From Pomacea canaliculata (Eukaryota > Mollusca > Gastropoda > Architaenioglossa > Ampullariidae): a stretch of 64,000 nucleotides of DNA. Positions 7,205-62,052 of this stretch are shown here, one piece after another (positions within the stretch are counted from its first letter, which is position 1; every line of letters begins with the position of its first letter). The DNA lies in the NCBI RefSeq assembly GCF_003073045.1, contig NC_037597.1:1488190-1552189 (forward strand), in the 5' to 3' direction. A program made the translations under genes and the position numbers. The notes under the pieces are model-generated. The model was given only the letters and a program-made list of their open reading frames with translations. It was not told the DNA's origin and did no database searches.

Positions 7205-7240
7205 GAGTTGTAATGCTGCGACTGGAGATATACTGATGCA

Positions 7241-10200
7241 ATGGCAGTCTCCAAGGTCATTAGGTGTGGATCACTACAGTTCAACATCCGCAATATTACA
7301 GTGGAACCTGTGCTTTTTCTTTATTTTTTCGCAGCCTATATTGTAATTCCGACCCTGCAGGCTCTGGCCTATCACAAGGTGTGCATACAGAAGTACAATG
7401 CATCCTTTTGCAGTGAGCTGCAGAATGTTACTTTTCAGAAGGAGCATGCAGAAGAAAGTGACTATGTGCAGACGGAAACATCCCACCTCATATTGCTGGC
7501 AAACATTGCCATGACTATCCCAGCCTGCTTCACGGTGTTTTGTTTCCTTGGGTCCTTTGGAGACAAAGTTGGTCGCAAGTTCCCCATCTTGCTGCCAACC
7601 GTTGGAGCAATAATACAGGCGTTTGCAGGTCTTCTGAATGCAGCTTTTCCATCAAGCTCTGTCTACTTTCTTCTTATCGGCCCTGCAATCAGTGGTTTAT
7701 GTGGTGGGATTATAGCAGCTGTGATGGCTGTGTACAGTTACATTGCACACATTGCAACCACAGAGTCCAAAACAATGCGCATTGGCATTGTGGAGAGTAT
7801 GGGCTTTCTGGCAGGCACTCTTGGTGTCTTCTTATCAGGCTTGATGCTTGATCGTACCAGCTTTGAATTTGTCTTTGGTTTCACCATGGCACTGCTGTTA
7901 CTTGCAACAGTGTACATTGTTTTTTGGCTGGAGGAAATTAGACCACCACAAACAGTGAACATAAGCAACATTTGTGGGCGATGGATTTTGGAAAATGTGA
8001 AGGAATCAGTGAACTTCATCACAAAACGGCGGCCACCTCGAGTGCGATGCACCATCTTCCTTCTTATCATCAGCATCAATTTAATACTTCTTTGTACCAT
8101 TGGTGAGGGAATCTTTCTTTGCTTTTTTTTGCTATAAATATAGTTGTTTACTGCAATTAATAGCCTTCAAAGATCAAAATCAGCTATTTTATATGTGTAG
8201 CATCTCTGCCTCTCTCTCACACATTAACATGAACACACATATTTGCATGCATGCACATATATAAATACACATACAAATTGTATATATATATAGTGTACAT
8301 ACATAGTACATACATATATATAGTGTATATACAGGCACAGGCAAAGCTTAATGTATGGATAAAGTTGAATGTATGCATTCATGCACATAAGCGCGCGCAC
8401 ACACACACACACTCTCTCTCTCTTTTCCTGTCCCTATTTCATTCTGTATTTGGTATGTGAACAGGTAATATTTTAAATTGGACTTTTCCAGTGTGAAAGC
8501 TGACCGTTTGTCCTACTTCGTACACATGCTGAGAGTTTTGTTGCTTCTCTTTCATTAGGTGAATTTGACATCATCCTTCTGTTTCTGCGTCGAGAGCCAT
8601 TAGTCTGGTCTCAGTCTATGTTTGGTTACTTCAAGGGAGCAGAAAATCTGCTAAAAGGACTTATGTTGGTGGTTGTCCTTCCTATTCTGAAGAAAAAATT
8701 ACACGTACGGGACACAGCTATTGTGATGGGTGGTGCCATGTCCAAGGTGGCTGGCCTGATCATACTTGGCATTGCAACAAAAACATGGATTGTGTTTATT
8801 GGTAGGCACTACTTACTATTACACTTGTTTGAGATTTAAAACTGTTAGAATTTTAGACCACTCTCATGACTTGTTTGCTTTTGACAGTAGAGGTGTTTTC
8901 AAAGAAAGGAAGGCAGATGGCTGTAAGGAGCAAAAGTAAATCACAGAAAAGTTAATTTTTTTGCTCTGTGCAATAGCTGTGTGTGTGTGTTTTTGAGGGA
9001 TAGAGAGAAAGAGTGAAGGCTTGGATCAACTATGTTAAACAAGTTTCTAGGAGAAGACAAAGTATTTCACTTTCATTAGTTCATCAAACTACTTCAATGA
9101 GCATTAAAATAATCTTTTCAGGTATTTCATCAGTTTATTTTAAAATTCTTACTATTATATGAAATCTGTATGTCTAAAATTAATATTTAAAGATTGACTA
9201 ACATGTTTTATTTCTTTGAAAAGATTTGAGATTGATAAAAAGACATTAAATATTTCATTAAAAGAATGTGGTGCCAGCGTTCCCTTTATTTTGTCTTAAA
9301 AGCTGGAATCGTTGGAATGGCACAGGGACTGCCTTCCGCTGGTCTTCGCTCCATGATGTCCAGCCTGGTCAAGGATGATGAGCAGGGTGGGTTGCCCAGT
9401 GTCCTCTGTGTCTTCATTACTTCAAAATGTTGGAACATCATTTGAAATATCCCTTATAAAGATGATTTTATCCTTGGCAAAAACATAAAACTTGAATGAA
9501 GAGAGAGAGATCATCATCTTTGAGTCCTCTGTTATCTTTTACCAGTCTGCATGGTTCACATTGTGTATATCATTTGGCTGCATTTATCAGTAGTAGCAGT
9601 ATATGATGTTCATCTTATAAACATTCTTCTATGAAAATGTGAATATCAGAATTGTGACCTTGTATAGGTACGTTTAAAGACACGTGCCCTGCGGGATACC
9701 TTAGTATATTTCTTTTATATCATTAGGTTTTCATTTACAAAATTGTGTGTTTTTTAAATGCTTAGTTTCCCCCCCCCCCCTTAATTTTTATGTCTTTTTA
9801 TGGATGTTTGTGTATTTTTTTTTCAGGTCGTCTGTTTGGCATTGTGGCAACAGCAGAAAGTTTGATAGGCATCTTAGCAGCACTTCTCTTTAACACCATA
9901 TATCCACTGACACTACATTTGTTTGCAGGCACTTGTTTTTTAATGGCTGCAGGCATTTCCTTTGTCTCATTCTGCATAGTACTGTGAGTTATATTCTTGG
10001 TCATATAGAGAAGTATGTAAAAAATCAGTTCTACTCACCTTTCACGATGCTTAAAAATAATTCAGTTTTATGAATTTTCAGACACCATGACCATTCCAGT
10101 ATGGTATTCCCTTCCATTGTTATCTATATAGTTAGAGTTCACAGTCATAGTTATGAAATATTGATGGAAACTTCCAGCAGCGATGCAGGGCATTGTGCTT

Positions 10201-33714: not shown

Positions 33715-36084
33715 TCAAAGACCAGTTAGTTTCTCTTCGCAATCACAGCTTTCTTTGTATATCTTTATTTTCCACAGTTTAATAGCATTAAAAATTATAC
33801 CCAAGTTTCCATGTTTACAACACCTGTTATTGCAGACGATAACATGTTCATGTTAGTAGACGAGTCCAATGGCCTACATATCTATGTTACACCATCTTTG
33901 ACTTTTATCACGAATTAAGGAAGAGTTCAAACCCTGTCATTGGATACTTCTTTAACTGAGTAAAATTCATTAAACACAGTACTTAGATGGACTGGTTAAG
34001 ACTCCTTTGGTCACAATACTTGAACTGACTTGCTGAGCTAAAAGTTGAACGCAATACTTCGACCGACTTGCTAAGCTGCTTACATCGACTCCTTACAATC
34101 CTACACAGTAGGCGGCGTGCATAGCAAGACATCAGTGGAGCTCCGTCTCATTCTAATGTGTATTTTTAAACATCACACAGAGTGTGCGAGAATTGTCGTA
34201 GGTTTCGACCTGTTGTGCAACTTTTCCCCGTCTGTTGACATTGTTGCAGTAAGGCAGCATTATGAAATAGCTACGCCTGTTGTCTTTGCTAGGAGGTTCA
34301 CTTGTTGGACCAAGGATACAATGAGGGATGCCCCCATAAAGACTGGGTAAGACGCGAAGAACGGTTATCGCTGTCTGCAGCTGTGTATTAGTGAACATTT
34401 CAATGGATTGACATGATGACAAGATTGTGCTAACAAATCTTAGTGCCTTGTTTTCTCTCCGGGATTTAAAACATCGCTGTTATAAAAAGCAGTTCACTGG
34501 TGTGTGAGAGAGAAGGAAAGATTTGTGATACGCCTTGTGTTCGTGTTAACACATCACACGTGTATCGATGGTGATTCACTCTTGGATTGACAGCTTTTAT
34601 TACCGCGTTTTTTTATTTTCTATTTGAGGCATAACATTCGTCGTAAAATGACTTTTAAAAACCGCGTGGCTTTTAACCTGTTCAGACGAGATGCGAAGAT
34701 CAGGGAGTATACAACTTTGGCTGCTTTCAAGTATGCCTTTGATGTTTCTTGCTGGCCATGCTGGGAGCGAAGCGGTAGGCTGTCATATCCTTGTCGAATA
34801 ATGTTAAGGCCATCTTTCATCTTGCACTTGCCTGTGCTAGGAGGTCACGTGCTTGGTGTCGTAAGAGCTTGCGGACTTGCCGCTCCTGTCAGGGTTACAC
34901 AGGTCAATCGTCAGTCAACAGACGCTGACACTTTCACCCAAGCTGCCCCCCTCCCCACCTCCCACGCCCCAAGAGAGTCGCTTTATTGCAAGTATACTTA
35001 ATCACGATATAACGGTCTAATGGATTGATCCTTACAGTTGTTTATAGTCCATATATAATGCGGTATATAAACATATCTTTGTGTCAACAAGTTCAGAATA
35101 TTATATGTGCTAGACACTTAGAAGACCCTTGTTATGATACGTGTGTATGCTAAGAGTTTGTATGATATTATTCGAAAACTTGAAGTTAACAGATTTATTA
35201 TCAAAATTCAAATTAAAAGTTGAGAGCGATAAGGTCATCTGCCATGTGCAGCAGCAAATACACATAACCCTGGGACATATTTCGAAGAACAAATCGGGTC
35301 CAGACAATAGAGCGCCTTTTCCATAGCATCTCACAGGAATACCTACTTTAACATCATCGTTGTCTTGTATCCACTGTGTTCATAGTGAAGCTAAACGAGT
35401 TTTAGCGGCCTTTACTTCATATGGAACAAGAACTAACCTAACAAGAACTGACTTTCTGGTCTTACCCGGCATTCTGTCTTTGGGTCGTCGTCCCGCTGCT
35501 GAATTTTTCTTCACTGTCCTGATGGAGGAGCAGGCTGGAGAACCTGTGTATAGCATTTTTCTCCCGTGTCACTAAGTAGAATTTAAACTGAATGGGGTTT
35601 TAATCGCTTTACTTTGAGGATACATGGTTGTCCATTCATATTTTCTATTCAATGGGAAGGAATGGTTGGCAAATTCGGTCTAAAGAACATCAATGACAAG
35701 GGCCTAAGGCTCTAGGGTTCGCTACGGAACTAAACATCGCACTCCAACTCTACAAAGAGTCGAGGATGGCAGCTGAGCTCTTACCGAGATGTTTCGATTC
35801 ACTACCAGCTCGATTGTGTACTGCATGCTCTGGAATACTTGGATAGCAAAGGTATCACACAAGGCTAGCCATGTTTTAATATCAACTAGCGGACAGGTGT
35901 GTCTCATTGGCCTCCACAGCACTCTCTCCACAGTCGTAGGCTTTTTAACAGTCTATAACTACCCCAACATGCTGGTGGTTGCCTCCAGTATTTCAGTCCG
36001 GAAATACTTGAACATATCTTGGCTATTTTTCAGTGACTGTAAAACTAACCCATGATCTTATTGCTAGAAGTCGGCTATTTTTCA
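33713..36084 (+). other. Stretch without a recognised gene
   Basis: No supported exon. The frame at 34624-35001 (125 codons) starts in good register but has no recognised domain, and its possible donors are not phase 0, so it does not fit the alternative-first-exon pattern. Otherwise mixed-composition intronic sequence. Confidence 0.4.
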
Positions 36085-36900: not shown

Positions 36901-39900
36901 GGGGGGAGTGGAGCTTAGTGGCTAGGAGTGTAATGTGGAAGATTGACAGGTGTGATGTATAGAGTTGATTGATTCACGTGACGAGCACTGTGAGCTGACG
37001 TAGGTCAGACGTTGAATAGGCTTTTTGTTCCACCCCAACTATTGAAGATTTCTAGAGTTTCAGATTGTAATGGTCTGAGTCAATTTTTTTTTAAAGAAGA
37101 AATGCTTATATTCTGATAAATATTTTCAGCCACCTTTAGAAGTCTTGATCCTATGTCCTTGTTTCCATTGTTGTTCATCTCGCGCGTCATTCATATATAC
37201 CACACACAGGTGGGATGAAGGGGTAGGGGTGCTGACCCAAAGGATGGCTCCTCTTCGTGCTTTTGCGCTCGTGGAGACACCGATGTCGACTAGCTCTTTA
37301 GAAATGGCTGCTGGAGTAAGATGTATGTGGAAGTAACACGTCGGGATGGGTATGAACTAGCTACAGGCCTTTATAGTGATGGACGTGTTTGAGAGAGCTT
37401 GGCCATGGCAGTACCTTGATTGATGGGCTACACATCGGTAGTCATCCACAGGACTGTAGCAAGTCGTGACAGCCGTAGCACGAATAATACACGTCCATGG
37501 CCGTAGTTACCTCCCTGACATCAGTCACATTTGTCTTTTCATTGTTTCTTGCCCACGTCTTTATGTCTGGTATTGAGGTAGACTGTTCCTTGTCTCACGC
37601 AGGCAAACACACACCACACCACTCCTCCTTTCATACATGATTTTCCATTTTTTTCAGTTCACAGCGTCTTGTGTTAAGAAGGGCCGAATGAAACAAGACA
37701 GCTTTCTCTTTTACTGAGTTGCATTAAGTACAGAGTGACCATATTCAGTGTGACTTTATCAAGACACAGTTAGTATATCCTTTTGCTCAAGCTGAATGGA
37801 TGCCGAAAATTACTTATGTGCGCCCGTTAAACACATGTCGACACACCACACTAGTCTGCGATGACCACGAAAAGGTTCGTTTCTCATGTAAGGAAGCTTG
37901 CGTGACGTGGTCTACTCATGGCTGAAGGAGACGGTCAACACCAGTATATGTTTGAGATAGTTATTGGTGTGTCTTATTTCAGGTAGGCTGTTACGCTCAC
38001 CTTGTCACCCACACACAGACAACAGTTAAATTGTCAGTCTGCGTTGTCATATGACAGGTGGAGGTAGTGCTCTGTTTCATTCCTACCTCCAACACGGTCT
38101 CCGCTACTCCCTCCACCCCGCGCTCGTCTCTGTGTTTTCGTGGAACGGATGGTTTGTCTAGCGGCGGCGTCTCTTGTAAGCCATTACTGTGGAAAGACGA
38201 AATTCACATTTATATTTAGCATAGAAGCCAGCTGGCAGACGCCGCCCGAGTTCGACTTGTGTAAGAAGTCTGTACCGAGAGAACGCCGTGAACACGTGCA
38301 TCCCAGTTTCTCTCCAGCAACAGGTTGCCGTGCACTCATCTTACGCTTGTGCATGGAAGAGAGAAATGTTTTTTAGCGAGAATCGCCATCTTCAAGAGTG
38401 TGGCCTTCTTCTATCCGAAAAGATTTGCCGTTTTTTGTTCAGGATGTGAGGGAAGTCTGCTAATATCTCAGCGGTGTGTGTGGTCCGACTTCATCCCCCG
38501 ACGGGCCAGTGGCTAGTGAAGGATGTTCTTTTGAGATGGTTCCTACGAGCACGTTCCAGACGAAGTGACACACTCTCAGTGGAAATGAGAAGTACTTAGC
38601 TGACCTTATGAACTCCAGGCCTGATGCCACAGACAGATTCGGGCGACGAAAGTCGGTGCCTTATCACACTGGTTGCCTTTGGCCCTTGAAGGAATTCATT
38701 TTCGCAACGTCTCTCAGTGGCACAAAAGTCTCTTGTTTCGCTGTAAATCTTTCATGGCGGCTGAAAACGCGGGAGGGAATAAAAACGAAAACAGGTGGGT
38801 CACAGAAACGTGAACGGGCTTCCTGCACACCCTGGAGAAGGAGGTGCGTCGGAAACAAATCTGAGCTCGCAAGCGTTGCTGTTGACTATAAAGACGTTTT
38901 GTTCTATCTTCTCTAAGTAGGCAAACCTTGAATTGCAGGATACAGTGGTCACCGCTGTTACGTGTGGCGACGACAGGCAACGGCTGTGCAATTCCTCTGT
39001 GTGGACAGTCGCTAGTGGCCACTATCAACATGCACGAGGGAACATGCGCTGCTCCTCAGTCATCCCCTCACCTGTAGTTATCACTGTCGTACCTGCAGGT
39101 CTCTGTGATTTCTTGACAGAGTCTCTTGTACTCTGTCATCAGTGGGAGCTGAAATAGGCAGATTTATGGCAGGAATGGCATGTCTGGCTATGCACTGGCT
39201 GCTTCAGTCTGTTATTAACACTTAAAGTGTTAATCTTGTGCTCATCGTGAAATACGCGTCACGCCTCAACACAGCTTGTCGCATGGAGGTTTACATGTAA
39301 GAGGTGTTTACCACCACAACAACCTGTTCTTTGTGAGCTTTGACGAGCAACGTCGTCAGGTGTCTGTGAATGCGCTCGTTTATGTCATCTGCCAGGTGCA
39401 TCGGTGTGTGCAAAAGTATGGACAGTTCAGTTTGTTGCACAGCTCTCATCTGATTTGTTAACTACGAATAGGTGTTCTCTTTCGCTCTCTAAGCTTTTGT
39501 CGGTGTCTTATCGTGTGTGCGCATGCGTGCGACAATGAGCGACGAAAAGGGATGGGAAAAGAGAAAGTGAGAAAGATGAAATCAGTAGCTTAGATGTTTA
39601 GAGAGGTTTTAACACAAGTGTATTTGATCGTGATAGTTGAGGTAGTGGGTGGTGGTGTGTGATTTAAAACAGCGCCTTCTGCGAGTTCATCAATGTTTAA
39701 TTATATGTTAAAAGGACGTTTTGTCAAGGTGCAGTATCGCCGCACAGTAGTCTTCCGGCCTTTGACACCGATAGTAGAAGCTTGAAAATCGAGCAGGAAG
39801 TGCAGCGCATATCAGTGAGCATTGCACCTGGGAGTGGTGGAAGTTGTAGCACGGACTGGACTCGGATACACACACAAAACAGATCGTTTACTGCTCAAAG

Positions 39901-40076: not shown

Positions 40077-43000
40077 ATGGATAAGGCTCGCCTTAAGGCC
40101 CAGAGCCTGTTAGACAAGCTACATGTCAAGTACGGAATGACACCCAAGAGTCCAGTACCTCTGGTACCAGAACCTGAACATGCTGAGCATGCATTGCTGG
40201 ACAAGGTAGGGTGTCACACTGCAACCATAGTGTTTGTCTCTAATCACGTCTCATGTTGTTTGACTGTTCTTACCTCAGATCATCTGTCTTGCGCTACTTG
40301 TACTTCACTGCAATTACCTACAGCTTAATTACTTATAAATGATTTATATACATATATGCCGTATATTGTGTTATTTTGTCTCTGCTTTAAAAAATCCAAT
40401 AAACGTTTGTGTCGAAATATCTCAACTGATTCGTTGAAGTTTACATTGCGTCTTTCCTAGACTTGTCGAATACAAGACAGAGTTGCATGAAAATACTTGC
40501 AACATTTTTTAAATGGAAAACTTAGATTGTATTAACTTTACGACGATACACAGTATAAACTATTGGAACTACATAACTTTCTGCTTTGAGAACCTTGTGC
40601 TTCTAGATGTAGTAATGATTTATATCAAAAGCCTTTAGGCAGATTTGTACAAATATCATTTTATGAATTTCCGAGGCCGCATTTCCCTGACTAGCAGTAA
40701 AGATTGATTGTAGGAAAGGGGCGGGACTGTTATTGACTACTGACGACCAGAGCGGGGTAAGAAACAGAAGTGTTTTCTAACCAAATATCTGCTTCACAGT
40801 CCAGCGACCTAACCAGGATACCGAGCGAATGTCAGTACGGGTGCTTGCAGCTTGGAGTACATTTTACTAACTAGGCTTTTACTCAGACCTTACTCTACAG
40901 GTCTAATTCCTACCTATTTCGGGAAAGATGGACAAAGAATCACTGTTCTGCCTCTCTCTGTGTCCGTCTTTTTCTTTATGCTTAATTGAAGCAAATGCCC
41001 GAACCCATCGTACACACAAACCTCTTGACTTACTTACCTACCTTACGTCAAGGACCGCAGTGAACCGGAAAAAAAATCTTACATTTTTACACGAAGCATA
41101 ATAGAAGATTATTTAGTGTTAAAAACATCAAAAAAAATAAAAAAAAAGACATGCATAAATAGTTGATCAAGCTGCTGTAGTCATCGCTTGATATTCATGG
41201 CTTGAATAGGATTTTGTTTTTTCAGTGTCTTGTGTTGTCCTTCATTTGCTGTCCGGCCTCCACTTCCCACCTTCCCATTTCACTTTTTATTTACAGCAGA
41301 AATCCAGCAGAGAAAGATCTGTGGTATACTTCATAGGTCTATGGGACATCTTGCTTTGTGTGACGTTGATGTTGTGATTGTGACGGGGTGAGTAGGAGAG
41401 GGGTTAAATGGCATTCAGTTAAAGTTTTGTGTGGTGTATCTATTTGCTGCAGGAGCCCGAAGACAGAGCCCATGTCGGCGGGGAGAACTGGTACCTTGTG
41501 GACTCTCACAGTAGCAAGTTCCGTCTGCCGAAAACCATGCTGTTCCTGGGCCGTGAGGAGTGTGACATCATCATACAGGTTCGTGTTTACCGTTACAGCA
41601 TAAAGCAAGCAAGCCGCCTGGAGTGCGGTATCATTCAGGTGTCTCATCGTTTAGTCACTCTAACCACTCGGCTATCCGTTTCATTTGCAGCACAAAGCGA
41701 ACCGTGTGTTCTGCTTGACTGATGTTACACCGCAAAAGATTTGACGAATATCCGATGAAAGTACTTCGCGAAGGTTATTTAGTGCAGCGTTGAGTGATCA
41801 TCTCGGAGGGTCCAGTACCAATACGAATAAATTATTAGGAAGGCATTTGGTTTTGTACGGTAGAAGTAGTGAACGTAAAAAATTGCATAAAAACGCGCAC
41901 GCGCACGCGCACACGCACACGCACACTCACACGCACACGCACGTGCACGCGAGATTGCCGTGAGTGAACCTGGCCTTGTGCTCTCTTAAAAGCATGAAAC
42001 AGTATGTAGATTCCACTGTGGAACGATCTGTCTGCAAGCTGCCAGCCTAATGGACCTCTCAGGATAGATAATTAGTCCACTGGCCAGGACATCGACATGA
42101 ATGCATTCCTCGTGCCTAGAGGTGCCGACATGGTTTACATGAATTTTATCCACTTACACCGGCAGTCTCATGCTCAAAGGGAATTATCTGTGTGAGTGAG
42201 GGAGATTGATCCGTTTTTTCTAGAACTATTGCCCTGCGAAAGGCCATAAAACAATATCACAATAAAAAATAACAACACTACAATAAAAATGATCAGGAAA
42301 CATAATGGAAAATCTCATATTTACAATAAAAGAAAAAGAAAATATGATTATTTCAATCCTGCCACCTGAACACAATTTTTTTTTCAGTTTCTCAGAAAAA
42401 TTATGTACATTTTCAACATCTCGGTTCAACCGAACAAAACCAAATTCACTTTAATGTTGGATACTTGGTTCACTTTACCTTACCCCTACCATCTAAATTA
42501 GTGTTGCCCAACCCTTTCTTACCCAAGGGCTGCACTGGACATGTAATCCTTAGGGCCGGAACATGTAATCTTTAGGGCCAGAACATGGTGGTTTTGCCAG
42601 AATCATGACGTTAAAAATGAAATTATGTTGTGTCTGGTTAAAATGGATGTGGCCCACGGGTCGTAGGTTGGGCACCCCTAATCTAAATCATAACATTTTA
42701 AACACTTTATGAGGCAGTCTCTCATTGATTAGCCTAATGAGTTTTAACCAAAAGCTAATACATCTAATGACTGAATTAACAGTTATTGAGTATGGGTGTA
42801 GTTGACCACAGACTAAATGGGAGAAAATATCACGACATGTAATACTGTTAGTAATGCTGCTATCCTCGCAAAAATAATTATCCAACTCAGAATCACTATT
42901 TCATTACCTGTCTTTGATGTTTTTGAAAACACTACAATGTTCACATTCAGTTACATCATACACCTTGCTGATTGTATCAAGTGATGAAACAATATCTGCA

Positions 43001-46479: not shown

Positions 46480-49400
46480 CCACATTTTTCGAGAAAAGTT
46501 ATTTTTAAAATGCTGTATAATGGAACAGTCTAAAAAGGGTTATGCAATCAATATTCGCGTGCGAGAGTCGGCGGTGGAAAATTCTGCCCGAAAAAAAAAA
46601 CAACTTAATCGTTATGTATGTATACCGTGTACATCCACGCAACTGTGTGCGAACTGCCCTCTCTGCTCTCTGCTCTCTGCACATGTATAGCTCATCATTT
46701 ACATTATCGATGGGTTCATGTTGGATATTTTAAAATTAATGAGGAACGCCAAGAATTTATTAGCATTGTCTCCAACATAGATAGAAGTCATGCGCTGCAC
46801 GAACCTATCTTAATTTGCTTTAGGCAGTCATGTTCCATTCAGAGCTGGAGGCCAGCCAAGAGCACCAGCAGTTGGCACTTGGTTTTCTCCGGCCATTCTA
46901 ACTTGCAATCGCACAGCTGCAGACGCGTCAGCGTTCACTCCCCAGACTGGCTGGGGAGCAGTGTTTTTGTGACATTGGGATATTCTGGCATGAAACCTTC
47001 GAACACGCTAGTACAGATCGGCAGTCACAGAGCCTGCCGCTGTTGCCGCGTACAGCAGTGCCCACCACCCAGCAGCCCAGCTCCACGTCTCCTCTCGCCT
47101 TTCGCCCTCGCCTTCCTTTCGAGCGTTTTCTCGGTATCGTATCCACGGTTTGTTTCATTATATAATCGTCACTAGTAACAGACACAAACAGTCTGCGTTT
47201 CCGTTTGTTGTAATGCTAGCATTATTCGCGTGATATGTAGAAGGGGTTTTCTTCCTGGTGAAAGGGAGGGAATAAGATCTTTTATGACAGGTCGTCGCGG
47301 AACTGCCAGGGGTATTTTTAAGGCAGCGATTGTATTAATAGTGTGTGTCTCTTATGTGGGCGGAAAGGACTAAGTTAAGAGAACGATTGAGTTGTGTCAC
47401 GGGACAGGACAGCCAGAAGTTTCTGCTTAATTGTTTCTTCATCCTTGTCGACTAATGCATTGCGACAAAAATGCATATATGATTAAAGTGAAATTGTTAT
47501 TTCATGTTGTTGACAAATATATACACCACCAGCAAATAAAAGTATGATCTATTTTTAGAATCTTGCTGCCATTTGTTGTCTGGTACATAATTTATCCAAT
47601 AACAAACATAAGTTTAGCCAATACTTATGATTTTGAAATTACTCATGTACTTATCAACACAATAGTAATAGATATCAACATATGTGAAAGGAAGAAAAAT
47701 TAATTCCTCACTATAAACTTTAAAATTTATGCAATAAAGTAATATTTTGATGTTTAAAATAGCTCTAAATGAGTTTGAATGTACAGACAGAGTAGCAGAA
47801 TCCACATATGCTTTTGCACCTGCTTGAGTGCATAGGTGCAGCTCTGCAGCACCTTTAGCCACCTTACTGTTTTGAGGTTTGATGTCCATTTTTTCAGGAA
47901 TTTAAAGTGTAAAGAAATGTTCTAAAGTAGTTTTTCCACAGAACATTATTGGAAGGGTGAACTGTGTGCAGTGCTTTCAAAGTAGTTAATTTTTCTGTTT
48001 CAGTCTGGTACCGTTGACAAACGACATGCTGTCATAACGTTTGACCTTTATCTCAACCGTTTTAAAGTCAAAGACTTGAGTACTACCAACGGAGTAAGTG
48101 ATGTACATGCATTAGTATTCATTTTGAAGACCAGGAACTTTAAAAAAAGTATTGTTATTTGTGTGTGTGTGAAGAGAGAAGGATTGAGAGTATTTTGTTT
48201 AAACAAACTTTCCCCTATCTGTGTCTATTATTCATGCCTAGCTTAGTAATGTGAAGTGCAGAGAGCCTGGTTGCATGCTTGCTAAATAAGCATTCATCAT
48301 AATCGCCATTATTAAATGTTAACACCATCAACTGAAATTGCATATAACGTTAACATATAGAATGAATTGAAATTAAGGCAAGAATTTATATGTTTATATA
48401 GATTTGGATTAGTTTGAATGTAAAGGTTAGTGCAAGCAAAGATAGGCTGTGGCTGCCATCAAAATAATGTCAGAAGTCTATCAAAGCCAGGCATTCAGAA
48501 ACTTGATGGACAGAGGACCTTGAATATCACATTATATCAGTGTATGATGAATTAGTTGTAACAAATATGGAGCAGTGTTGATATGGTTTTAGTGAAGGCA
48601 TTATAGGTGTAAACCTATTCCAATATTGAAAAGAGGGCATATGCAAGGACTGACATTGACTCGCTGTGCCTTCATTAGGTAATGCTTATCTCCTCTAGCT
48701 ACCACCTACAAGTTTAGGGTATGAAGTTGCAATCAGCTGATAAATGCTGCACTTGTAATAATGAGTGGATGACAAAGATAATCTATTTCTTTGTTTTTAG
48801 ACACTGTATTTGTGGGATCCAGTCAACTTTTTTGTATTTTGTTTCCAAAAAATATTTAAGCCACATGAACTCTATTATTGGGGACATAGTTTATAGCACT
48901 GTTTATAGCATTGTACTTCAGTATGTCTCAGTGTATTGCTTTCTTAAAATTATATGTAGACACAGAGAGACTGAGGAAACAATGATAAATTACTATTATC
49001 ATTAAAAATTGTCATTGGTCACATGGGGAATTATTCATTACTTTATTCACCAAACATGTGTTCAGCTACATTGGGTTTGTCCCTCAGCTTACCTGTCTGT
49101 TTGGCCTTTAAAGACACACCCACTAAGCTAAGGTTGGGTGCTAATCTTCCACAGGCAAGCATGTCACAGTCACCTAGCCCCATTAACTTTGAGTGTGCTT
49201 TGGAAACACCTTACACTGTTTGCTACAACATATGCTATATAGCCCTTACTCTACTTGGTAATGAATAGTTTATATTATCTATAGTAGTTTGGATCTGCTG
49301 TTGGTGGGGAGCTTCCTGCTTAAGACTAAGGCAAACTGCTAAATATTTAACGTTTTCAGACCTACATCAATGAGAGCCGCATACCAGAGCAGGAGTACGT

Positions 49401-52400
49401 AACCCTTAATCACATGGATTCCATTCGTCTGGGCTACGATATCCTTTGAAATTTGTGTGAAGTTTTGACACCTTCTCTAAATGCTTAAAAAAAAAAAAGG
49501 CAAGAATATTGGCAAGTTAGACTTAATGATAAATTCTGCTGTTCTGAATCTTCTGCTCAAACTTTGGGTTTCAGACAAGTTATAATCATGTCTAAGTTAT
49601 AATCATGTCTAAAATGTAGTTGTGAGATAGTTTTTGAAAGCTGTTATGCTTTGTAACACAAATTTATTTGGCAGAAAGAATTCAGAATTTCACTATTTTT
49701 AAGCCATTTTCCTTTCTTTTCTTTTTAGAAACAACAGACTTTAGAAAAGCCAAAGATAAACACCACCATTACATTTGAGGTCCTGAAATATCAAAAGGTC
49801 CATCTGTATTGTTCTCAGAACTAAGTTGCTCATTTCAGGTGATTTCTAGACATGCTTTACTTGTCCTTGACTGTATTCACATGCTAAGGTGTACCACATC
49901 GAGCAGGGAGACAAGCAGAGTGAGGGATCACCTTCACCCCCTCCACTACCCCTTCATCCACCTCCACCCTTGCCGTCAAAGGCAGTGTCTTCTGTGGAGA
50001 TGGAGGTAGAGGGGACGGAAGTACCAGCTTGGGTCAATTGGCACACCAGTCAGATGGCAGAATGCCAGGTGAGACTCATTCTCCTACTACAGTCATTCTT
50101 TCACCTGCCAGATGTGCACAGAAAGATCTCTTGAGTCAATTGGTTTTGCTTTAGTGAGCATCTAACAGAGCATCATTTTATTTAAAAACAAACTCTTGTC
50201 ATCATATTGTCATTTGTTTCAGTTTTTTGGCTGTCATTTCTATGCCCTTACCACTTACAAGAATTCACAATAAAAAACAACAAACAACTGCATGTAATTA
50301 GCTTTGTAACTGTTTTAGTGATTTTATATGGAGTTATTCATGTACTTCGTCAGATAGAAGGCATTTCTAAAGAGTGAAAAAAATCAGAGAAGCCATTTAA
50401 AAAAATAAGATTAACATCTTCTTTGACAACATAGCACAATCCTTGCAAGTGAGTGTGCTGGCATGCATGTCAAGCTGCTTGTCTTTAAAGTCATATTTTG
50501 CATGAAACTGCTTAGCCAAAATTTTATCAGTCTTAAAGCGTTTAGTAGTTGGCCATGCTATGTAAAACTGATCTGGCTTTGCATGTTTTCACAAATTTTT
50601 AAGTATAATTCAGAAGAGATCTGTTCAGAAATGTAGCTTTGGGAAAGATTTATTAAAACAAAATTTGAGTACAGTAAATGTTCTAGTTGGGAACTAATTA
50701 GCTTCAAATTGAAGTTGGGGGAAATGTCAGAATATAGCACCTTATGGGCAGTGGTGCATGCTCTCCAAACAACGAAAGTGTTTGCTATATGCTTTTATGT
50801 CTATCATGAGAATGCTAGTGTTTATCTTGATGTGCCAGTTGATGTTTAAAGTGGCATGCATTGTTTTTACCACGGAAAGCTGCAATACTGTGGATACTAC
50901 CCTGGTACCAGCCGTATATGGTACCCAACACTGGTAGGTATTGTGGTCATATTAATAATCATCCTCTTCCTCTTGGATTGTTCTTGGTGTTTTGTGAATG
51001 GTGGCCTTGTCTCATGCACTTCTGGAGAAAAGTTAATTAGTATTATGATAAAGAAGAAAAGAGCTCTGATGACATTGCTCAAAGAGGTTGTGTATCCATC
51101 TTACAGAATTGTTTTTTTTCTTTCCTATTTATTTTATTCTTTTCTTTCTCTCTATTTTAGAGAACAGAGTTTCTGTCTGAGATGTCTGCAATCAGTTTGT
51201 ATAATCAACAAATCAACTCTATTTCCTTGTGTGTATATATATATGTGTGTGTATGTTGGGTAGAAGGGTGTATGTGAGTAAAAGCACTGTTGCAAGAGAA
51301 AAATGGTTTGATTAAGCATGGAGAAAGCAAAAGAAAAAGCACTTCATCTAGTATATTTTCTTGTAGAAGGAAGCATGCCCATGATTTTATCAGCTAGCTA
51401 CCTGTATATAGTAGTGTCTGCCACCAATCAAAGATACAGTATAAAATGATGTCTTTAAGAAGCTGTGCTTGGCATATTATTATTATCAGAACCCCCTTCT
51501 TTGAGTAGCTCTTAAGGTTTAGTCCATATTTAAATATACTGGCAAAGCAGTTTTGTTAAGATGTGAAGCAGACATGTAATAATGCATGAACATGATCCTA
51601 GGCATGGTGTCTCCTCACCTAGTGGGAAACTCTTCTTACAATACAGCACAGGCAGCTGCTTATTACCGTCTTGTGTCTGTACCATGTATGCAAGGTTCAC
51701 AAAAGTTAGCTGCTCTTGTAATTAGAAAACAGAAATTATGAATCAGAGAGGATCATCAAATTAAATTGAAGTTCAAGCATCATCAGATTTAAGTTTTGAC
51801 GAAAAATTATAGACAAGTATTGCATGACAAAGCTGTGAAGCAGGTTCTCCTAGAGAATTAAATACATGTACCTCATTCTGCTCTATTAAATTGCTAACCT
51901 GAGTGCAATGAAACAGTCCCACAATCTGAGTAAATGACTCCTGTAGGTTTCTGGGATACAAACCTTCAAACATAAACATTAAGACATGATGCTTGGACAA
52001 GCTAAAACCTGTTTCCTTGATGTTGCTTATATAGGATAGCTGCCATGGCAACACATAACATGTGCTTCCAGCTCTTGCACTGGCTGTCTTTCTGAGGTGT
52101 TTACACTAGTCCTTTTACACACTGAAAAGTTCAGTAAAGCATGCTTAAAATACAGTAACACAACAATTTTTATACCAGACTAATGACAACATTAACCTCT
52201 CATCAATTTTATTTTGTGTTTGAATCAAATTGTATTCATAAAATATCCACCTGAATGTTATGTGCAAGGATTTACTTCTCATCCCAACTTTTCATGGAGA
52301 TTTTATTTTTATTCTGTTTTTAACAGTTCTATTTGATGTCTATAAAGTGCTGGAGTTAAAATCAATGTCTTTTATATTTATTTCTTTTGGTGTGTCAGTT

Positions 52401-55400
52401 TAGGTCAAGGTAACTTTCATTGTTATTTTTTTAAATGAGTATGTAGCATTATGAACCCCAAAACCACAGAGTGAAGAAGGCATACATGGTTTGCAATATC
52501 ATTAGCTTTTCATGAAGCATGTAAATAAATACCAATTCACCAATTCTGAAGGCATTCAGGTAAAATGCTTGATAATAATGGTACATGTATAATGCAGTGC
52601 AACACTTGGACCTGTGTAAAATATTGTAATTTTTTTAATATCAATGCAACTTTATTGATTCTCAGGGGCAATTCAAAACAGTGCTCGTACTAGCAATAGT
52701 TTATATATATACATGATATAAAAAGAGATCTTACATTAATTTCATTTTTAAGTATTATTAAAATTATAATAAGTGTTTTACTTTCTTAAGATATATGTTT
52801 CTTTTAGATAAATGTAGCAACTAAGCCTTCATTATTTCTGTGTTAATATTTATACTCTGAGTTTCATGTCATATATATGTCACATCTCAGAAAATCAAAT
52901 ATTTTGCAGGCTAGTTTTTTTTCTCCTTTAATAGATTTTGTGTTGTGGTGTAACTTTTAACATCTGAATAAATCTTGTCTCTATATCATAAGAAGTGATC
53001 ATTTTAAAATGATTAGTTAGAAGTGATAATCATCAAAAGTATTTTTATTTCAGGGATGTATTGCAGAACAGAAGATTGAGCACACATGCACGGCAGGCCA
53101 TACTCATCACTCCAAACTGCAGGAGCATGGACAGGGTGCCTGTGTGATGGCATCAGACTCACACTGTGCCATAGAACCTGAAGCTGGTCACAACCCAGAG
53201 CAAGATCTTGAGGGACTCAAGCCACGGCTAGGCAGGAACACATGGCCTCGGAAGAAAGTGCGTCAGTACACTCACGTGGTGTCAGTATTTGACGAGGACT
53301 TAGATACCCAGGGTCAGCCTGTGACTACAAGTGGCAGTAACACTTACTTTGTGTCAGCGGATGATTCAGTCACACCAGCGTGTGGCAGTAGAGGCATGGA
53401 CAGTCATTCCTTTGATGCTGGCAGTATACAGCGAATACCTCGTAACAGCAGGCTACCTCTGCCTCCAGGTTAGTATTTGAAAATTGGCCTTATATTCCAA
53501 CAGTAATAACTCTGAGTACAGTGAAATGAGAAATGAGATGCAATAAGAGTTTGTACTGATAAAATTGTTTAGCGTTTGTTTGGCAAGAGTGAGCGAGAGT
53601 GTGTGCATGTTGTGTGTGTGTGGATAAAATTGAATGTTCCTTAGAACCTTTGTAAGTGCCTTCATAGTTCAGGGTTTAGAAGTATACGGTATCCTCTCCA
53701 GTAAACATCTGTTAGTTAATTCCATCTCTAAATATCTTTTTTTACGTTGCTACTATTCAGTCAATTACCTGCTTTGTGTTGATAATGCATGCACAGATGT
53801 ATGTGATTGTTGTGAATATCTACTTAGCCTTGTTTCTCCATATCTTTCAAATTACTCTGTATATACCAGGGTTTATTTAAATACAGAAGCCTGGCAGCTT
53901 TTAGTGCCTTTGAAAAATAAGGTTTTCTTTATATTGTGTATTCCAGGTCATGCTCAATGTGTAAATTCATCCATGTCTAAGTTGCCCTATTTCAGGGCTT
54001 GCATTCATGGCTATTGGCAATTTACTCACAGATGAAATTGTCCTAATTGAGAAGGGGACTTGCAGGTTAAATAAACCCAAGAAACTCCCAGTTCATGAAC
54101 CATTGAAGAGGACGCTTCATAACTGAGAAGCATAGCAGGAATTCCTCAAAAGGATGCGACTACATACGTTGCCTATTTTGGGGCCATTGGTGAAGCTCTG
54201 CAGCCTACAATTAAAAGAAAAGTTAACAAAAATGAAAAGCAAAAGAAGGGTGTAAAAACATGAAATGATGTTCCTTGAGCAAGTATTAGATGATAGTTAA
54301 AATAAAGAGCATAAATCTTAATCCATTTTACCGATGGTGTCTGATGAAATCAATTTCTTCCTTTCAGAGGTTATTGGTCAGACAGGAACCAGCAGGTCGA
54401 GTGCTTGTTACCTCCCTTAGCCTTTGGTGTCCGTTTATGTTGAGTCGTTGTCTCCCTTTAGTCTTCAGTCGATCCGCCTTATTCCCGAGTGGCATTCTCC
54501 TCTGTCTTCGTGAAAAGCCACGGACAGAAACAGTACAGTGTAGACCACATTCACACTGAAAACACACACAAAGTTTAAGCACTCATTCTTCTTCGAAAAA
54601 GCTACCTCTTCTCCTGTCTGCGTAGACAGCTATGTATGAACGGGTCTCGCCTGGCGAGGTAAGTGCTTCTACGGTAGCCGACGGATCTCTACACTGGCTG
54701 ATGTCACGGGGCCTGAGAAACGAGGCCAGGGTGACATGAGAACCTCCAGTCTGACATGAGAACCTGTAGTGCTCCGGCACAGTCGTGGGCGTGTGGTGCC
54801 GTGCTTCTGTTGCTGGCTGTGGGACGAGTAGATCAGACCACTCACCGCATTGAACTCCTCCCCGTGTTTGTTGGACTTCGATCGGTGGCTGCCAGCGACT
54901 GGGCAGTTAGCCAGTAGATTGCACGATAGAAAGAATCGATGCTTCACCAGCCATCGCAGAGCTTGGGTGCCAGTGATGAGAGGGAGTCAGCAATGACAAG
55001 TAGATGTGACTTGTTTCTGCGGTAAGTGGTGCGAACTGCAGTTGCTGGACGTGCGCGTTATCAGTTAGGTCACACTGCCCTCAAACAGCTTTTGGGGGAT
55101 TGTTATGCTATACAGTACATCATTGTGGCACATCTATGCAGCAATATAGCACTTAAATGTAATATGATTTGAGAAGGAAGCGATTTGATATAGGAGGGAA
55201 TTGTTCAGTTGCTGCGCTGATAGGTTGTCATTACTGCATCATCCAGGACCGAACTTCCAGCACGAGTGAAAATCGAGTCTACATCAGTGAATGAAAGGTT
55301 TTTTGGTGCAGCTTGTGAGTGATTGAGAACACCAGACTGGAGCGTTTACTTATTGTTATCACTTTCTTCGCCATCGTCAACATCGTCGTTATTGTCATCA

Positions 55401-61261: not shown

Positions 61262-61960
61262 TGGGCAGGGGGAGGGTAGAGGTGACAGGTGGCAGGATCC
61301 GCCACTCACGGCCACCGCGACGTCGACCACTCTTGGAGGTACCTTCAACGAGGTGTCGTTCCGTGTCACATGACCAGACCAGCTTACATCGCTTTACTAT
61401 TGCAAGTAATGGTTCTTGGTCTCCTACGAGTGTGGCGACCAAAGATGCAGCAATGATAAATACTAACGGAATGGTTCAAATTGTTCTCCGTTGTGTTCGA
61501 TACAAGAAACCATGACTTACTTTTGTCAGTGCTGCTCTCCATGCCATGTGCACTTGAACTCAGGGCCGTGCTTAGGGGCAGGCGGACGAGGCATCTGCCT
61601 AGGGCCCCGCGCTTAAAGGGGCCCCGCTCTTTTGATTGATATGTGACTTTAGATCCCAACTAAAACCGTGTGATCGTGGCGTGAGGGCCCCGCACATGCC
61701 CTTTGCCTCGGGCCCCGCGGGGGCTAAGAACTGGTCTGCTTGAACTGTATGTCTTTGGTAAAGTCTTACAGTTTCTGATGAAGTCGACGTCGTCTGCAAA
61801 TGCAGATGGAGGTGCTATGGTCGTGGAAGTTTCACATATGGTGTTCTCCAGAAAAATGTCGACCAGCACAGGCGATAGTGGGTGACCTTGAGGGACGCCT
61901 GCTGATGAATGATATACAGAGTCATTATACTCTATACAGTGCATTTCTATACACACATTA
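61262..61960 (-). mobile_element. Endonuclease/RT LINE remnant, minus strand, split by a hAT MITE
   Basis: The high-coordinate end encodes SAGVPQGHPLSPVLVDIFLE and a PPSAFADDVDFI block, which are RT motifs B and C (GxxQGxPLSP ... FADD). The low-coordinate end encodes VGDQEPLLAIVKRCKLVW and GRRRGGREWR, the C-terminal block of the same ORF2 type. They lie in order on the minus strand and are interrupted by the MITE at 61561-61738. The GRRRGxR segment resembles the same block of the fragment at 14930-15090. Confidence 0.8.
61561..61738 (+). mobile_element. hAT-type MITE nested inside the LINE remnant
   Basis: A 178-bp element starting CAGGGCCGTGCTTAG and ending CTAAGAACTGGTCTG, an imperfect 15-bp terminal inverted repeat (11 of 15 match). 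It is flanked by identical 8-bp copies CTTGAACT (61553-61560 and 61739-61746). It is very GC-rich internally, with runs such as 'ggggccccgc' and 'gggccccgcgggggc' that self-complement. It is in the family of 'CAGGGCCG...' hAT MITEs. The overlapping open frames across it are artefacts. Confidence 0.85.
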
Positions 61961-61980
61961 TCAGTCAGTTTGTTTAGGTT

Positions 61981-62052
61981 GCTACACTGACCATCTCTCG
62001 CCGTGATATAGTTTTAAATTGCTGATACGGCGTTCAACACCAACAAACAACA
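61981..62052 (+). repeat. SINE family B tail fragment
   Basis: 'ctcgccgtgatatagtttta' with 'aattgctgatacggcgttca' and 'acaccaacaaacaacaac' match the 3' end of SINE family B. The tRNA-like head is absent. Confidence 0.6.

Follow-up and report, generated by a model that had tools for sequence, protein, structure and literature searches.

A predicted U12-type AT-AC intron in the coding region of the FHA domain of an animal CEP170 gene

Positions 49439-49880 on the forward strand of the window, by which we mean the whole 64-kb stretch of DNA that was analysed, almost certainly form a minor-class AT-AC intron of the U12 type, set in the part of an animal CEP170 gene that encodes the FHA domain. 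A preliminary description of this DNA had proposed the same reading. We adopt it because the donor, the branch site and its spacing, the AC end, the intron phase, the reading frame and the restored homology to CEP170 all agree with it.

Exon structure and CEP170 homology

The exons placed in the window are the following.

41453-41578, forward strand: CEP170 exon, ...ENWYLVDSHSSKFRLPKTMLFLGREECDIIIQ, 126 nt, acceptor CTGCAG, donor GTTCGT, phase 0; aligned to the CEP170 structure 4jon
48004-48093, forward strand: CEP170 FHA exon, SGTVDKRHAVITF...STTNG, 90 nt, acceptor TTTCAG, donor GTAAGT, phase 0
49360-49438, forward strand: CEP170 FHA exon, TYINESRIPEQEYVTLNHMDSIRLGY and the first base of an Asp codon, 79 nt, acceptor TTTTCAG, ending in phase 1
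49881-50068, forward strand: CEP170 exon, the last two bases of the Asp codon and AKVYHIEQGDKQ...AECQ, 188 nt, donor CCAG/GTGAGA, ending in phase 0
53054-53468, forward strand: probable next exon, GCIAEQKIEHTC..., acceptor TTTCAG, donor GTTAGT, with a fitting phase

Introns 1 and 2 are of the GT-AG type and exon 4 is followed by GTGAGA; only the third intron is AT-AC. The exon at 53054-53468 probably belongs to the same CEP170 gene, in the place that we infer for it. When the first four exons are joined, the product from ENWY onwards has 151 residues and no stop.

Compared with solved structures, this four-exon product matched CEP170 best (PDB 4jon, E = 3.2e-29, 105 bits), whereas the second-best solved protein reached only E = 6.4e-07. 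The alignment with 4jon places query residues 2-100 on chain residues 6-104 without a gap and runs across all three junctions. Together with the Pfam FHA match (E = 2.5e-16), this identifies an FHA domain of the CEP170 type and bears out the earlier assignment of the gene as CEP170-like. The likeness is one of protein sequence, as the 4jon chain is silent on the introns of its own gene. The Pfam FHA model stops at residue 87, before the junction with the fourth exon, and it is therefore unhelpful for choosing between the spliced product (2.5e-16) and the read-through product (5.2e-17).

Beyond the junction, the 12 residues that begin with the split Asp scored 21 against the CEP170 chain, and 7 of 127,930 windows scored higher. 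As a score of 21 was reached by 9 of the 127,930 windows, the split-Asp stretch itself included, the residues past the junction are not the only ones to match this well. One other continuation, DTNLF near 49656 inside the intron, scored higher (25 vs 21); it was rejected, since no GT donor precedes the stop in its frame. Searches for relatives of the FHA protein gave 4 pattern matches in viral contigs and 40 in genomes of bacteria and archaea, and none of these was confirmed, an outcome to be expected for an animal gene.

Signals of the AT-AC intron

The intron and its recognised signals are listed below, with the consensus sequences taken from the available text of PMC2831892.

49439-49880, forward strand: predicted U12-type AT-AC intron, 442 nt, from donor, branch site, AC end, frame and shuffle test
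49439-49447, forward strand: U12-type 5' splice site ATATCCTTT (C at +5), compared with the consensus ATATCCTT
49864-49871, forward strand: U12-type branch site TCCTTGAC, with 49870 as the likely branch A, compared with the consensus TCCTTAAC

The donor ATATCCTTT at 49439 is a full match to the U12-type AT-AC 5' splice site ATATCCTT(T), as the preliminary description had stated in calling it the exact consensus. It had also placed a branch motif where one should be expected, and TCCTTGAC indeed lies there. Its likely branch A precedes the first exon base by 11 nt, and a review (PMC3584512, available text) gives 11-13 nt as the best spacing between branch site and 3' splice site. The branch region GTCCTTGAC agrees with 7 of the 9 bases of TTCCTTAAC and is the top site in the last 60 nt of the intron, a match that is weak on its own, as 202 sites on both strands of the window are equal or better.

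At its 3' end the intron closes with AC at 49880, and this AC end restores the reading frame. The spliced frame reads ...DSIRLGYD-AKVYHIEQGDKQ..., which recovers the GYD codon and the following block, both as previously described, and continues the gap-free alignment to CEP170 4jon. Without splicing, the frame reads Gly-Tyr-Asp-Ile-Leu-stop, with the TGA at 49447-49449. The Asp codon of Gly-Tyr-Asp is split after its first base (G/AT), which makes this a phase 1 intron, and phase 1 is the one that animal and plant minor introns have most often (PMC10639083, available text). The G+C content of the intron is 31%, and that of the flanking exons is 49% and 56%.

Two further features lie inside the intron. 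Two copies of AAGTTATAATCATGTCTAA with overlapping ranges, at 49577 and 49594 (forward strand), are spaced by 17 bases and form a small tandem duplication. At 49709-49728 (forward strand) there is a strong major-class acceptor-like tract, TTCCTTTCTTTTCTTTTTAG, which might serve as a cryptic 3' splice site if minor splicing fails.

Chance expectation in the window

Chance occurrence of these signals was estimated from 200 dinucleotide shuffles of the 64 kb, counted on both strands and without regard to position relative to exons. On the two strands of the 64 kb together there are 4 copies of the donor 9-mer ATATCCTTT, against a shuffle mean of 0.83, whereas TCCTTRAC, also with 4 copies but against a shuffle mean of 4.2, shows no excess by itself. 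The combination of a suitably spaced donor, TCCTTRAC and AC was found once in the 64 kb, at 49439-49880; its shuffle mean was 0.035, and at least one such combination arose in 6 of the 200 shuffles. The real set moreover falls exactly on the exon border defined by homology and in the phase required by the frame. Most of the weight of the signal evidence is carried by the donor.

Elsewhere in the window, ATATCCTTT is present at 37775 (forward), 56198 (forward) and 21539 (reverse), and none of these copies has TCCTTRAC together with AC in a range of about 2 kb. Donor-like sites of 8 bases are located at 34785 (forward), 55905 (reverse) and 14421 (reverse), and a further donor-like site, GTATCCTT, at 34319 (reverse).

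The window holds a number of features besides the CEP170 gene. An ORF of 307 aa at 7214-8137 (forward strand) matches the Pfam family MFS_1 of the Major Facilitator Superfamily (E = 1.6e-17) and may be extended by the ORF at 8504-8839, which is without a Pfam match. At 61660-62013 (reverse strand) there is a weak match to the reverse transcriptase family RVT_1 of Pfam (E = 2.4e-4), which at 21.3 bits lies below the curated cut-off of 29.6 and is probably the remnant of a retroelement. Rfam, searched over the 64-kb window at gathering thresholds, gave no matches.

Alternative splice choices and rival explanations

To compare the AT-AC pair with its alternatives, we enumerated the splice choices between donors at 49363-49469 and acceptors at 49475-49915, allowing GT-AG, GC-AG, AT-AC and AT-AG pairs. 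A single one of the 55 choices that leave the frame open, the AT-AC pair 49439-49880, retains both RLGYD and AKVYHIEQ. Five of the 55 are GT-AG pairs, with donors that lie upstream in the exon at 49399 (four pairs) and 49427 (one pair). The preliminary description had held that any GT-AG alternative would meet a TGA first. This is too sweeping, as these five pairs stay open. They were rejected as candidates, as each deletes part of the FHA core.

These open pairs are the ground for supposing that the major spliceosome joins the exons by a GT-AG splice and that the U12 motifs are coincidental, which we regard as very improbable. The best case for such a splice combines the donor at 49399 (TAC/GTAACC) with the acceptor ending at 49888 (CTAAG), a pair that is open. 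Its donor is poor, however, and the product would lose VTLNHMDSIRLGYDAK. All five pairs remove FHA core residues that align with CEP170 without a gap, and none of them accounts for the presence of ATATCCTTT exactly at the homology border.

Still less probable is that the intron has AT-AC ends and is nevertheless excised by the major spliceosome, a route known from some sodium channel genes. AT-AC ends do not by themselves settle which spliceosome removes an intron (PMC2831892, available text), and the CEP170 intron shares its AT and AC ends with those of the sodium channel genes. According to the same text, however, the sodium channel introns carry a G at +5, the mark of AT-AC introns removed by the major spliceosome, whereas the CEP170 intron has a C at +5. 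Its entire donor fits the U12 consensus, and its U12-like branch site lies at U12 spacing.

A similarly slight probability attaches to the view that what lies here is a decayed or incomplete copy of CEP170 with a meaningless exon border. In its favour, no start exon was identified upstream of 41453-41578, the first exon placed, and no C-terminal CEP170 domain was found in the one downstream ORF searched against Pfam (53030-53470, which holds the exon 53054-53468; 0 families). Yet the five exons, with the probable fifth included, join in frame into 897 stop-free nt with intact splice sites, and the remainder of the gene may simply lie beyond the end of the window.

Comparison with known AT-AC introns

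The U12-type reading of 49439-49880 places the intron beside other A-type minor introns, such as those in the AT-AC rows of a fly table (PMC2831892) and the P120 reporter intron (PMC8280824), as given in the available text of these sources. With A-type minor introns it has in common the ATATCCTTT donor, a branch site of the TCCTTRAC type close to the 3' end, the AC end and phase 1, and with their genes the presence of major-class introns elsewhere in the gene. It differs from the known A-type examples in its host gene, CEP170. The preliminary description had called AT-AC introns very rare in animals; they are indeed rare among all introns, whereas among human minor introns they make up about 26% (PMC10639083, available text). 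Molluscs are among the groups that are relatively rich in minor introns, as the same text states.

Among the papers listed by our literature searches, none was seen to describe a minor intron in CEP170; the U12 databases may well list one. The available text of PMC11684760, which also contains the term 'minor intron', names CEP170 once, in the title of a reference. The best reading is that the CEP170 AT-AC intron is an ordinary U12-type intron of a probably invertebrate gene and one clean new example of a well-described class.

Proposed mechanism and implications

The minor spliceosome recognises its donor through U11 and then U6atac, and its branch site through U12. In the CEP170 transcript, ATATCCTTT would thus be read by U11 and subsequently by U6atac, whereas U12 would pair with TCCTTGAC and leave A 49870 as the branch point. 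The cut after AC at 49880 would then join the exons into Gly-Tyr-Asp-Ala-Lys-Val-Tyr, the end of the FHA domain. Were the intron kept in, translation would end two residues on (GYD-Ile-Leu-stop). As a retained intron would lead to this early stop, the sequence predicts that the minor spliceosome is needed to make CEP170 at full length.

In human cells depleted of CENATAC, 92% of the A-type minor introns responded, compared with 24% of the G-type (PMC8280824, available text). Because A-type minor introns are the most CENATAC-dependent in human cells according to this source, the CEP170 AT-AC intron is expected to be CENATAC-dependent as well, provided that the animal has CENATAC. More tentatively, the FHA-domain intron of CEP170 might be an old AT-AC minor intron that is common to animals, with CEP170 as a direct CENATAC target, and minor-splicing defects might then hit centrosomes and cilia partly via the loss of full-length CEP170. 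We consider this broader proposal possible, if rather unlikely.

Gene prediction programs restricted to GT-AG introns would be likely to misplace the CEP170 exon border at 49438. An unspliced CEP170 message would lose the last part of the FHA domain together with all that follows it. The intron thereby makes a connection between the centrosome protein CEP170 and the minor spliceosome testable. If the intron position is conserved, CEP170 would become a further gene worth examining in disorders of the minor spliceosome.
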